Origin: Acidimicrobiia bacterium
GTDB lineage: Bacteria > Actinomycetota > Acidimicrobiia > Acidimicrobiales > Poriferisodalaceae
Direction of reading: 5' to 3'
Length of the DNA: 64,000 nt
NCBI GenBank assembly: GCA_022820925.1
Contig: JAJEEO010000007.1
Coordinates: 1-64,000 of the forward strand
Shown here: positions 16,136 to 27,584 of the stretch, in pieces
Numbering within the stretch: the first letter of the stretch is position 1
Layout: each line of letters begins with the position of its first letter
Notes under the pieces: generated by a model
Database searches by the model: none
What the model saw: the letters and a program-made list of their open reading frames with translations, nothing else
What the model was told of the DNA's origin: nothing
Program-made: the position numbers and the translations under genes

Positions 16136-17293
16136 TCAGCCAAGGCGGTGCTCGCCGGGCGCTTCGGCTCGCTCAACTGACGTGTCGCGGCTGCTGCGGT
16201 AGCTGTCGGCGCCGAACTGGGCCGCGATCGGCGGACCCAGTTGGGCCAGCATCGGGTCGAGCGGTGTTCCCGTGCCGTTGGTCACGCGGTTCATCAGATG
16301 GAACAGGGCGCTCACGCCGACCGCGTCCACCAAGACTTCGGCGCCCATCGCCGAGCGCACCTCATCTCGCACCTCGGCCAGCACTTGCTGGTCTCTGCCG
16401 ACCATCGCCTCGCAGAGACGCACCAGCAGCTCGCCGTGCTCGACACCGCCGTCGCCGTTGCCGGCGCCCTTCAGCACGTCCAGCGAGATCTCGCATCCTG
16501 TGGCGTTCCCGCTCAGACCGAGCAGGACTGCGTGGCTGGTCGCTCAGTAGAAGCACTCGTTGCCTGCGGAGGTGATGGCACCGATCAACTCCATCTGGGT
16601 GCGCTGCAGCGACCAGACGTCATTGCCGATGTCGTCGCTCAGCGCGCCGCCTGGCACGTAGTGCGACCCGATGAGCGCCATCTGGATGTTCCGCTCGGGC
16701 GGCACGAGACTGAGCGCCTTGAGCACGTTGGGAACCTCGGGCTGCGGTTCGAGGCCCGTATTCCCGGCTTGCTCAGCGGGCCGCCATCCCGCAGCGGCAT
16801 CGGGCGCCGTGGGCACCCAATGGGTCGTCACCGCAGCGCCGTCGGGGGTTGTCCGGGTCGGCTCCCCCGGTGCGGCCGGACCGACCTCGATCCGTCCCAG
16901 TCCCAGCCCGTCAGCGAAGCGGTCGACCATGTTCACCTGCGCCACGAGGCTGAGCAGCTCGACATAGTGCCCGGCGGAGAGCGCCGCAGGCACCAGTGCC
17001 CCATACCACTCGCGGGTGAGGGTCGTGACGTGGTTGGTCACTCTCCAGATGACGTCGACCGCGAAGGCGGGCAGCGGATGGTGGTCACCGACGAGGCCCG
17101 GCACGCTTGATGGTGCGGTCCACGGCGGGAGTTCGTCGGCTCCGCGGGCGCGCCTCACCTCTTCGACGATGGCCACGCGCTCGGCAGCAGTCCACCAAGT
17201 GCCCGGGGCTGACCAGTGGCGGACGGCGGCCGCTTGGGCCTCCCCGATCTCCGCTCGGATCGGCAGCGGCGTGTCGTAGAGGGGCGTCGTCAT
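16136..17293 (-). CDS. AhpD-like (carboxymuconolactone decarboxylase family) selenoprotein, in-frame TGA = Sec250
   Basis: Predicted 385-residue thiol/selenol oxidoreductase of the AhpD/CMD superfamily. The frame runs from ATG 17293 to the stop at 16136, broken only by TGA at plus-strand 16544-16546. At that codon the protein reads E-C-F-Y-(TGA)-A-T-S-H, i.e. the AhpD active-site pattern ExxCxxCxxxH shifted to E-C-x-x-[U]-x-x-x-H, with Sec in place of the second cysteine. The frame stays open for 136 further codons of family-like helical sequence. A SECIS-like hairpin follows directly (16508-16526). The start overlaps the stop of the luciferase-like gene (ATGA). If the TGA acted as a stop, the protein would lose its redox pair and C-terminal third. 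A nonsense mutation is the alternative, but the second case at 27036-27584 argues against it. Confidence 0.82.
16508..16526 (-). promoter_or_regulatory. candidate bacterial SECIS hairpin
   Basis: Reading the minus strand, bases 18-36 after the TGA form CCTGCTC-GGTCT-GAGCGGG: a 7-bp stem (one G-U pair) closing the five-base loop GGUCU. The loop is identical to the SelB-binding apical loop of the E. coli fdhF SECIS. Its GG is at positions 25-26 after the UGA, inside the usual 16-37 base window. Confidence 0.72.
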
Positions 17294-18324
17294 GGCGCCG
17301 CGATTGCGGGCATCACTTCGGTGGAGAACAGGTCCAGTGAGCGTTTCACCAGCGGCCAAGGCTGGCCGCCGTAGTCGCCCTGGTAGGTGAACCGGTCGAA
17401 GTCGCCACAGTCGATGATGCGGCCGACACGGTCGAGCACCTCTTCGGGGCTGCCGTTCACGATGGCGCCCTCGGGATTGGCGAGGTCGGTGATGTGCGGG
17501 GGGAGCTGCACGTCGTCGGGGTGGTCGCCGCTCCGCTTGGAGAACACCCATCGCTGGAATGGGAATTGGTAGATCCCCAGGTGATCGCGGGCTTCTTGGC
17601 TGGTAGGAGCGACGTGAGTGTGTGCGTGCACCGTGACCTGCGGATCGTGGGCGTGGCCGGCCTCTTGCCATGCCTTGTGATAGCCCTCGAGCACCCTCGG
17701 CAAGACCTCGCGGGGGAAATACAGCAACGAGATCGTTGCGCCGTGTCCCATGGCGGCAGCGTGGGCTGCCGACTCAGGGCTCGACACGGCGATCGAGATC
17801 GGCACGTGGGGCTGTTGCACCGTCCGCGGCTCCAGCGTGACACTGTCCAGCGGCGGCCGAAACCGGCCTTCCCAGGTGACGCTCCGCTCGGTCCACAGCT
17901 TCACCAGCAGCTCCAAGCCCTCCTGCTGCATCTCGAGAGCCTTGTCGGCGTCCTGGTCGAACTGCCCGTACACCGCTCGTTCGACGCCCCGGCCCACGGA
18001 CAGCTCGGCGCGGCCGCCCGATACGACGTCGAGGGTGGCGAAGTCTTCGGCGAGGCGAACCGCGTCGTGGTGGGGCAGCAGCGTGACGCCAGTCCCCAGG
18101 CGGATTCTTGACGTGCGCGCTGCCAGCCAGGCGAGGAAGACCTGCGGGACCGAGACGATGAAATCGCTGAAGTGATGCTCGCCGACCAGAATGGCATCGA
18201 ACCCCGCTGGCTCGGCCGACTCGATGTAGTCGAGGATCTCCTGGTGGCGTTGCGCCTGCGACGTCCGCTCACCCGTGGCCGGATCGGTTCGGTGATCTCC
18301 GAGGGTGAGCAGGCCGAATTCCAT
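17290..18324 (-). CDS. luciferase-like (LLM) flavin-dependent oxidoreductase
   Basis: A 344-residue TIM-barrel monooxygenase or F420/FMN-dependent oxidoreductase. The N-terminus MEFGLLTLGDHRTDP, the GFDAILVGEHHFSDF stretch, LGTGVTLLPHHDAVRLAEDF and VVSGGRAELSVGRG are standard LLM landmarks. It is the first gene of the cluster 18324-14253 (LLM, AhpD-like selenoprotein, SnoaL-like, aldehyde dehydrogenase), consistent with oxidative attack on an organic substrate imported by the divergent ABC system. No Shine-Dalgarno is visible before ATG 18324, and the predicted transcription start lies about two bases upstream, so translation is probably leaderless. Confidence 0.9.
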   Translation of the reverse strand: MEFGLLTLGDHRTDPATGERTSQAQRHQEILDYIESAEPAGFDAILVGEHHFSDFIVSVPQVFLAWLAARTSRIRLGTGVTLLPHHDAVRLAEDFATLDVVSGGRAELSVGRGVERAVYGQFDQDADKALEMQQEGLELLVKLWTERSVTWEGRFRPPLDSVTLEPRTVQQPHVPISIAVSSPESAAHAAAMGHGATISLLYFPREVLPRVLEGYHKAWQEAGHAHDPQVTVHAHTHVAPTSQEARDHLGIYQFPFQRWVFSKRSGDHPDDVQLPPHITDLANPEGAIVNGSPEEVLDRVGRIIDCGDFDRFTYQGDYGGQPWPLVKRSLDLFSTEVMPAIAAP

Positions 18325-25827: not shown

Positions 25828-26415
25828 TTAACTGCGGGCGAATTCGACGAGGTCGTCGATCTCGCCGGCGTCGGCGGAACGTAACGCCGCGAGGTACCGC
25901 TGACGCAGCTGTTCGGTGGAATCCTCCAGGTTGCTGCCCCAGCTGAACCTCCTGCAGCCGAGGTTCTCGATGAGCAGATCGGCGCTGATGCGGCTGTGCC
26001 TGCCATTGCCGTTGACAAATGGGTGGATGGCAACGAGGCGATGGTGGAACCGGACGGCGATCTCGTCCGGTTCATACGTCTCGTGCTCAACCCAGGTGGC
26101 GGCATCGTTCACCGCGTCCCTGACGTGAACGGAGATGTAGATCGGTTCAATGCCGATGTTGGTCTCCTGTTGTCGGTAGTGACCAGCCCAGGCCCAGACG
26201 TCGCCGAACATCGCCTTGTGGAGATGACGCAGGTACGTGTCGTCTAGGAGAATCGGCAGTCGTGGCTTCGGACGCAGCAGGGCATTGGCGATGTTGCGTT
26301 GCTCGGCCTCGAAGAGCTCTCGCAGTGTCGCTATGTCCGGCTGGAGCAAGTCCGCTCGCTCGTCGTCAGGCACCAGCGTGTGCCCGTCGCCGAGCGGGGC
26401 GGCGAGGTTGCTCAT
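25828..26415 (-). CDS. Fic-domain protein (mobile mystery protein B)
   Basis: A 195-residue Fic AMP-transferase-like protein, probably the toxin of a pair. The Fic active-site loop is HPFVNGNGRHSR, matching HPFxxGNGR, and upstream lies the helical FGDVWAWAGHYRQQETNIGI region typical of this class. Fic proteins transfer AMP or related groups to target hydroxyls. Its ATG overlaps the stop of the HTH gene by four bases, the standard arrangement of mobile mystery proteins A and B, an element-borne pair of uncertain function. Confidence 0.9.
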   Translation of the reverse strand: MSNLAAPLGDGHTLVPDDERADLLQPDIATLRELFEAEQRNIANALLRPKPRLPILLDDTYLRHLHKAMFGDVWAWAGHYRQQETNIGIEPIYISVHVRDAVNDAATWVEHETYEPDEIAVRFHHRLVAIHPFVNGNGRHSRISADLLIENLGCRRFSWGSNLEDSTEQLRQRYLAALRSADAGEIDDLVEFARS

Positions 26416-26885
26416 CGCAGGTGGTCTGGCTCAGTGCGCCAGAGGTCACGCCGCTGTTGGAATTCAGCGGCGAGGTCCGCGATCTGCGCTTCGAGGTCGT
26501 CGGGGGTGACTTCTTGGTCCTCGAGCCGTGAGTGGGCCATGACGTTCCTCAAGTGCCTGATGGCGCTGAGCCGAGCTTGAATCTCGACCATTCCGTCGAG
26601 GCTTGTGCGGGGCACGAGTGCATAGACGAGGTCGCATTGCATGGCATCGGCGACCCTGGTGAGGGTGTCGAGCTTGAGCGTGCGTTCTCGCTCGCCTCGT
26701 TCGATGGCGGGGATGCGCGACGGGTGAACGCCCATGCGGCGGGCCAAGTCTCCGCTGGTCATCCCCAGTGAGTCACGCAGCGTGCGGATCCAGCCTTGGG
26801 GAGGGGGGGCAAGATCAGCGAGGTCGCCGTGCCGACCGAAGCGTTGGTCGAGCCGGCGCCGTGATTGGGCTCGTTTGTCTCGCAT
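26412..26885 (-). CDS. HTH protein (mobile mystery protein A), probable antitoxin/regulator
   Basis: A 157-residue protein with an Xre-like helix-turn-helix near residues 40-85 (SLGMTSGDLARRMGVHPSRI PAIERGERE region), a VADAMQCDLVYALVPRTS segment and a helical C-terminus. It is the usual partner of the Fic gene it overlaps. The start is ATG 26885. It probably represses its own AT-rich promoter just upstream. Confidence 0.88.
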   Translation of the reverse strand: MRDKRAQSRRRLDQRFGRHGDLADLAPPPQGWIRTLRDSLGMTSGDLARRMGVHPSRIPAIERGERERTLKLDTLTRVADAMQCDLVYALVPRTSLDGMVEIQARLSAIRHLRNVMAHSRLEDQEVTPDDLEAQIADLAAEFQQRRDLWRTEPDHLR

Positions 26886-26894
26886 CGTTGTGAC

Positions 26895-26990
26895 CTGCCA
26901 TTGATCCAGATATTTATAAGTATTCAGACTGTTTAACTGTTGATATGTATATATAGTATAGCAACATTCAGAAGAATACAAATAGCGCAT
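26895..26990 (-). promoter_or_regulatory. AT-rich promoter region of the Fic/HTH pair
   Basis: About 95 bases of strikingly AT-rich DNA (TATTTATAAGTATTC, TGTATATATAGTATA) in a GC-rich background. GTTG (26939-26942) and CAAC (26962-26965) bound a loose dyad around the TATA run. This is the likely promoter and operator. The composition also signals recent acquisition. Confidence 0.5.
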
Positions 26991-27035
26991 CATCTCTGGA
27001 CATCGAGACGACTGCGACGAAGATCGCTAGGCCGC

Positions 27036-27584
27036 TTAGTCGGGGATCCAGTCCTCGGTTTTGATGCCGAGGCCGTCGGCGATGCGGTTGGCGTAGGCGT
27101 AGTAGCCGACCACTTCGGTGATGTCGAGGATGTCGCGGTCAGAGAAGCCGGCGTGGCGCAGGGCGTCGACGTCGGCGTCGTCCATGTCGCCCGGTGCGGC
27201 GGTGAGCTTGACGGCGTAGGCCAGCATGGCGGTGCGCTTGGGTGACAGCGGGGCGGTGGTCCAGTCGTGCTCGACGGCTGCGAGGAGTTCGTCGTCGGCG
27301 ATGAGGCGGCGCAGACCGCGCCGGTGGTGGACCACTCAGTAGTGGCAGTGGTTGGTGAGGCTGACGACCAGGGCGATGAGCTCGCGTTCGACCTTGCGCA
27401 GCGTGGCGGTGCCGGCCATGGCCGATTCGTAGAGGCCTTGGTGTGCGGCCATGGAGCGGGGGTTGAGCGAGTGGACGGCCAGGATGTTGTCGACCCGGCG
27501 GTGGGTGGGGTCCACGACCCGGGGGTGCAGCTCGCCGAGCTCGCCGTCCCAGGAGTCGGCGGGGATCATCTCGATACGCGCCAT
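27036..27584 (-). CDS. AhpD-like peroxidase-related selenoprotein, in-frame TGA = Sec83
   Basis: Predicted 182-residue alkylhydroperoxidase-like protein of the CMD/AhpD superfamily (peroxidase-related subgroup). It begins MARIEMIPADSWDGELGEL, continues DNILAVHSLNPRSMAAH and ERELIALVVSLTN, then reads H-C-H-Y-(TGA)-V-V-H-H: the CxxC active site with Sec at the second cysteine (TGA at plus 27336-27338). Beyond it the frame continues for 99 residues of typical family sequence (RRGLRRLIADDELLAA ... GYYAYANRIADGLGIKTEDW). The hairpin 27307-27323 is a textbook SECIS. ATG 27584 matches the family start; a GTG at 27599 is also in frame. Annotation pipelines would split it into two hypothetical fragments. 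Confidence 0.87.
27307..27323 (-). promoter_or_regulatory. candidate bacterial SECIS hairpin
   Basis: On the minus strand, bases 13-29 after the TGA read CGGCGC-GGTCT-GCGCCG: a perfect 6-bp stem with loop GGUCU. The loop GG is at positions 19-20 after the UGA, the same placement and loop as I recall for the E. coli fdhF SECIS. Confidence 0.8.

Follow-up and report, generated by a model that had tools for sequence, protein, structure and literature searches.

AhpD-like selenoproteins carrying a CxxU motif were described from the Sargasso Sea by Zhang et al. in 2005 (27 sequences, COG2128; PMC1088965), and the Global Ocean Sampling data contain hundreds more (PMC2398784). The CxxU family is also catalogued in PMC9312934, and it appears in a 2026 review and catalogue as "AhpD-like protein, TIGR01926, CxxU", with the GenBank representative MCB9421940.1 (PMC13188914). 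For AhpD proteins that use cysteine, proton relays have been described in P. aeruginosa PA0269 (Glu36, Cys48, Tyr50, Cys51, His55) and in M. tuberculosis AhpD (Glu118, Cys130, His132, Cys133, His137) (PMC3141380).

The gene considered here lies on the minus strand of a 64,000-nucleotide stretch of Acidimicrobiia DNA (the window, meaning the whole of the stretch analysed), and its features are collected in Table 1. Its translation, MARIEMIP...LTNHCHY-U-VVHHRRGLRRL...EDWIPD*, contains a single in-frame TGA. A reading made from the sequence alone had placed the motif H-C-H-Y-TGA-V-V-H-H in a peroxidase-related AhpD protein with 99 family-like residues after the TGA, and this is borne out: the TGA is codon 83, 99 residues follow it, and conservation continues past it. 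Translated through the TGA, the protein reaches 139.2 bits against the NCBIfam model TIGR01926 "peroxidase-related enzyme" (cut-off 81.8) and 51.2 bits against Pfam CMD; its score against NF041238, 40.5 bits, is below the cut-off of 175, and it is not filed in that family. On the sequence evidence set out below, the locus is almost certainly a genuine AhpD-like selenoprotein gene (carboxymuconolactone decarboxylase superfamily, peroxidase-related) with selenocysteine (Sec, U) at residue 83.

Table 1. Features of the selenoprotein locus and related genes in the window
Feature	Position	Strand	Remarks
AhpD-like selenoprotein CDS (predicted)	27036..27584	minus	182 residues + TAA stop (27038-27036); frame open through TGA
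Predicted Sec codon TGA	27336..27338	minus	residue 83; TGA in 66/66 distinct homologous CDS; paralogue TGC
Glu68, predicted proton-relay glutamate	27381..27383	minus	invariant in alignment A2; -15 from Sec, cf. PA0269 Glu36-Cys51
Cys80, first residue of CxxU pair	27345..27347	minus	invariant in A2; aligns by spacing with PA0269 Cys48 and M. tuberculosis AhpD Cys130
His87, predicted proton-relay histidine	27324..27326	minus	invariant in A2; +4 from Sec, cf. PA0269 Cys51-His55
Bacterial SECIS hairpin	27307..27323	minus	6-bp stem, 5-nt loop; stem pairing and covariation
Apical loop GGTCT	27313..27317	minus	GG at +19/+20 after TGA; GGTCT in 65/66 sequences, GGGCT in one
Alkylhydroperoxidase-related (seleno)protein, NF041238	16136..17293	minus	319.6 bits vs cut-off 175; motif CFYU; Sec codon 16546-16544
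Mobile mystery protein A (TIGR02612, HTH)	26412-26993	minus	downstream of selenoprotein gene
Mobile mystery protein B (TIGR02613, Fic)	25828-26415	minus	adjoins mobile mystery protein A

The predicted active site is built around the motif C80-H-Y-U83, and all five of E68, C80, Y82, U83 and H87 are invariant in alignment A2. PA0269 has the relay Glu-Cys-Tyr-Cys-His at identical spacing, with Sec in our protein standing for Cys51; Sec therefore takes the place of the second Cys in a CxxC pair. PA0269 differs in having Cys rather than Sec and a chain of about 145 residues, is about 29% identical in structural alignment, and is a weak reducer of H2O2. An AlphaFold model, in which Cys stood for Sec, is of moderate quality (pLDDT 81) and weak at both ends; it matches 3C1L, 2PFX, 2PRR, 6K40 and 2OYO at TM scores of about 0.8, and the fold search also returned the AhpD-like debrominase Bmp8 (TM 0.75). 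The chain topology of M. tuberculosis AhpD differs from that of the model and the structural match is weak, and the enzyme mechanism proposed below is therefore one drawn by analogy.

SelA would make Sec-tRNA-Sec, using selenophosphate supplied by SelD, and SelB, bound to the downstream GGUCU hairpin, would bring it to a ribosome at UGA codon 83; translation would then run on for 99 residues. The selenol of U83, at the catalytic Cys position of AhpD proteins and inside the relay Glu68-Cys80-Tyr82-Sec83-His87, would most likely react with a peroxide, or else with some other oxidised compound, and be converted to a selenenic acid; Cys80 would resolve this as a selenenylsulfide, and a thiol system would then reduce the Sec83-Cys80 bond.

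Judging by its relatives, the protein most likely works as a peroxide or thiol reductase that uses a selenol, and we consider it probable that it reduces peroxide. It is possible, if somewhat unlikely, that the selenoprotein instead carries out another reaction, such as reductive dehalogenation, or acts as a disulfide reductase or an AhpC/AhpD-type adaptor; the match to Bmp8 points in this direction, M. tuberculosis AhpD is an adaptor for AhpC (PMC3141380), and the neighbouring genes give no functional hint, the next ones encoding mobile mystery proteins A and B. However, the nearest structures both by sequence and by fold are peroxidase-related proteins, most of them uncharacterised, and peroxide reduction is the reading that we prefer.

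The adjacent genes for mobile mystery proteins A and B (25828-26993) look like a mobile module, and next after them is a gene for a luciferase-like monooxygenase. An operon with the downstream genes was considered as a functional clue and rejected, since these encode the mobile mystery proteins and are near the selenoprotein gene in only a few relatives; the two are also separated by an AT-rich stretch. Upstream neighbours varied in the few relatives checked (HTH/M78, unknowns), and across 20 named loci mobile mystery A/B genes turn up occasionally nearby, while no partner is widely conserved. ARAGORN called a tRNA-Val at 26085-26167 on the plus strand; as it sits inside the gene for mobile mystery protein B in antisense orientation and has no Rfam tRNA match, this is probably a false call.

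The hairpin CGGCGC-GGTCT-GCGCCG had been proposed as a SECIS with its loop GG at positions 19-20 after the UGA, and both hairpin and position are seen in the sequence; the first stem base is the 13th after the TGA, a position that would match the spacing of the E. coli fdhF SECIS. The window has two sites, 27338 and 16546, where a TGA is followed 14-30 nt on by a GGTCT loop with at least 6 pairs; Markov shuffles give an expectation of 0.05, so chance does not account for them, and both fall within AhpD-family genes. With a spacing of 18 nt from TGA to loop, a 5-nt loop, 6 bp and -15.5 kcal/mol for the hairpin stretch, the hairpin agrees with a published bacterial SECIS model (loop of 3-9 nt, stem of 4-16 bp, G in the first two loop positions, spacing of 16-37 nt and MFE <= -7.5 kcal/mol; PMC13188914). 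The fold energy, at z = -0.99 versus shuffles, is not remarkable in GC-rich DNA and was dropped as proof of a SECIS; the case for one rests on the conserved loop and on covariation. Across 59 distinct 39-mers, 96% of stem cells are paired, and pair three, counting up from the bottom of the stem, occurs as GC, GU, AU, CG and UA, which includes all four Watson-Crick types. The covariation score exceeds those of all 500 shuffles and of all slid registers, with double changes seen at one of the six stem pairs. Furthermore, codon choice is constrained where the hairpin overlaps the frame: Gly90 is GGT in 65/66 sequences, while the share of GGT among Gly codons outside the SECIS is about 16% and other near-invariant Gly positions of the same genes, unlike Gly90, have mixed codons; Leu91 is CTG in 66/66 versus about 31% elsewhere. 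An Rfam search around the gene gave no meaningful RNA match.

The source genome (G000; 3.28 Mb, 95.6% complete) was checked for the Sec genes, as the sequence-only reading had proposed, and tRNA-Sec, SelA, SelB and SelD are all present. The tRNA-Sec scores 67 bits, above its cut-off, and ARAGORN agrees (tRNA-SeC, anticodon tca); the profile scores are 395 bits for SelA, 272 for SelB and 356 for SelD, and a stretch of some 15 kb on contig C10 carries tRNA-Sec, SelA and SelB together. The SelD frame (G000:C13:426129-427082, L049) has one in-frame TGA of its own, and SelD is therefore probably a selenoprotein itself. An in-frame UGA does not by itself specify a residue, and UGA 83 could in principle be read as something other than Sec, through near-cognate readthrough or a general reassignment to Trp or Cys. 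This is very improbable in view of the conserved SECIS and the complete Sec machinery; moreover, paralogues have Cys at the site and the TGA form co-occurs with SelA. A general reassignment is also contradicted by the use of UGA to end genes, the 16136-17293 gene passing one UGA and terminating at another. Sequence evidence shows that the gene is real, that its TGA is conserved and that a SECIS, the Sec genes and the residues of the active site are in place; from this we infer that Sec is inserted at codon 83 in the cell.

Conservation was followed in a first survey of 61 genomes (the source genome and 60 relatives) and in a class survey of 247. In the first, the TGA-containing gene was found in 33/61 genomes: in 33/49 with SelA over its cut-off versus 0/12 without (hypergeometric 1.7e-5, uncorrected for relatedness). 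The class survey gave 41 matches at >=58% identity, every one with one TGA, a further 39 at 33-45% with one TGA, many of these from genomes of about 1 Mb belonging to one genus, and 6 without TGA. The codon aligned with residue 83 is TGA in 66/66 distinct homologous coding sequences; as the orthologs have common ancestry, such counts overstate the number of independent observations. The TGA orthologs span genus, family, order and class levels, and most of the relatives that have names are MAGs of Acidimicrobiia; there are also Candidatus Aldehydirespirator and a single contig whose label is Armatimonadetes. The close relative G009 has two copies of the selenoprotein gene (L020, L053), 95% and 85% identical to ours and both with the TGA. 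Median pairwise dN/dS among the first 42 of the 66 sequences is 0.19 before the TGA, about 0.26 after it and 0.25 past the hairpin, and no other in-frame stops are present in the 42 checked; among the closest pairs the values are noisy, some upstream ones being near 1 because there are few synonymous changes. Random decay after the TGA is thus not what the relatives show; purifying selection continues past it. That a nonsense mutation, or a sequencing or assembly error, broke a Cys-type AhpD-like gene and left a decaying remnant downstream, which the lone TGA one base from the TGC or TGT (Cys) of homologues might suggest and which the sequence-only reading had thought unlikely, is ruled out by the TGA in all 66 homologues, from many assemblies across the class, with selection and freedom from stops beyond it and a hairpin conserved at the nucleotide level.

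Alignment with Cys-containing homologues, also proposed at the outset, places the TGA on the conserved redox Cys position: eight Cys-type TIGR01926 relatives have Cys there. A paralogue in the same genome (C6:141750, 34-35% identity) reads C-L-Y-C, with TGC at the Sec position and without the GGTCT loop, and no Cys ortholog of the selenoprotein was found among the Acidimicrobiia genomes searched. A tree of 41 rows sets the eight Cys-type relatives apart as one group, with weak support for the split (70/24), and the Sec rows form three sub-clades. One sub-clade, in which C-x-Y-U precedes an AHL motif, differs in its downstream hairpin. A second Sec sub-clade (C-E-Y-U; L098-L100, other f41/g75 genomes) occurs in many sampled genomes, of about 1 Mb, of one genus, and its hairpin is different (GATCTCCGGTCGGAG). 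Two family-level relatives within the Sec side of the tree, L113 and L114, bear Ser at the Sec position (TCG and AGC), which perhaps follows loss of Sec. A single origin of Sec in the TIGR01926 Sec rows is possible from these sequences.

The window holds a second gene of this general type, the one at 16136-17293, which the sequence-only reading had taken as its first AhpD-like case; it proved to be a member of the curated NCBIfam (seleno)protein family NF041238 and has a GGTCT-loop hairpin 24 nt after its TGA. A luciferase-like monooxygenase gene (17290-18324) directly precedes it.

In the open literature, of which coverage is incomplete, no paper was found joining Actinomarina with selenocysteine, and titles and abstracts there revealed no relevant paper on Acidimicrobiia and selenoproteins; the spread of the TIGR01926 CxxU selenoprotein through the class may therefore be unreported so far. 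We hold it an even chance that the Sec form of TIGR01926 is ancient in the Acidimicrobiia and spread over the whole class, which would make the class a main source of the "AhpD-like" selenoproteins that abound in ocean metagenomes; in this direction point the lack of a Cys ortholog in the genomes searched, the differing SECIS hairpins of the Sec sub-clades, and one sub-clade that is close to fixation in very small genomes of about 1 Mb. Because gene-calling programs treat a TGA of this sort as a stop, annotation can easily miss the enzyme together with its reactive residue, and the selenoprotein reading would correct this for 27036-27584. It would also mean that an AhpD-type redox enzyme in a largely uncultured actinobacterial class depends on selenium, and the Sec/Cys pair within one genome allows the two chemistries to be compared; general knowledge of selenoproteins is unchanged by this gene.

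Compared with known systems, the protein is closest to the TIGR01926/COG2128 CxxU selenoproteins, which it resembles, by model and motif, in its family assignment, its CxxU with Sec second and its SECIS just downstream. There is no family-defining difference; it is a further member, from the Acidimicrobiia, of a family already known, of a kind known since 2005. The Cys-type TIGR01926 proteins (PDB 3C1L, 2PFX, 6K40, 2OYO and 2PRR, and the paralogue G000:C6:141750) have the same fold and relay residues, but the relatives read here have Cys (TGC/TGT) in place of Sec and are without the GGTCT-loop hairpin. NF041238 (AhpD_rel_CFYUT), which is "hypothetical protein 1" of the Sargasso Sea set and has a true member 10 kb away in the window, shares the CMD/AhpD domain, CxxU and GGTCT-loop hairpin, and is a related but different family.
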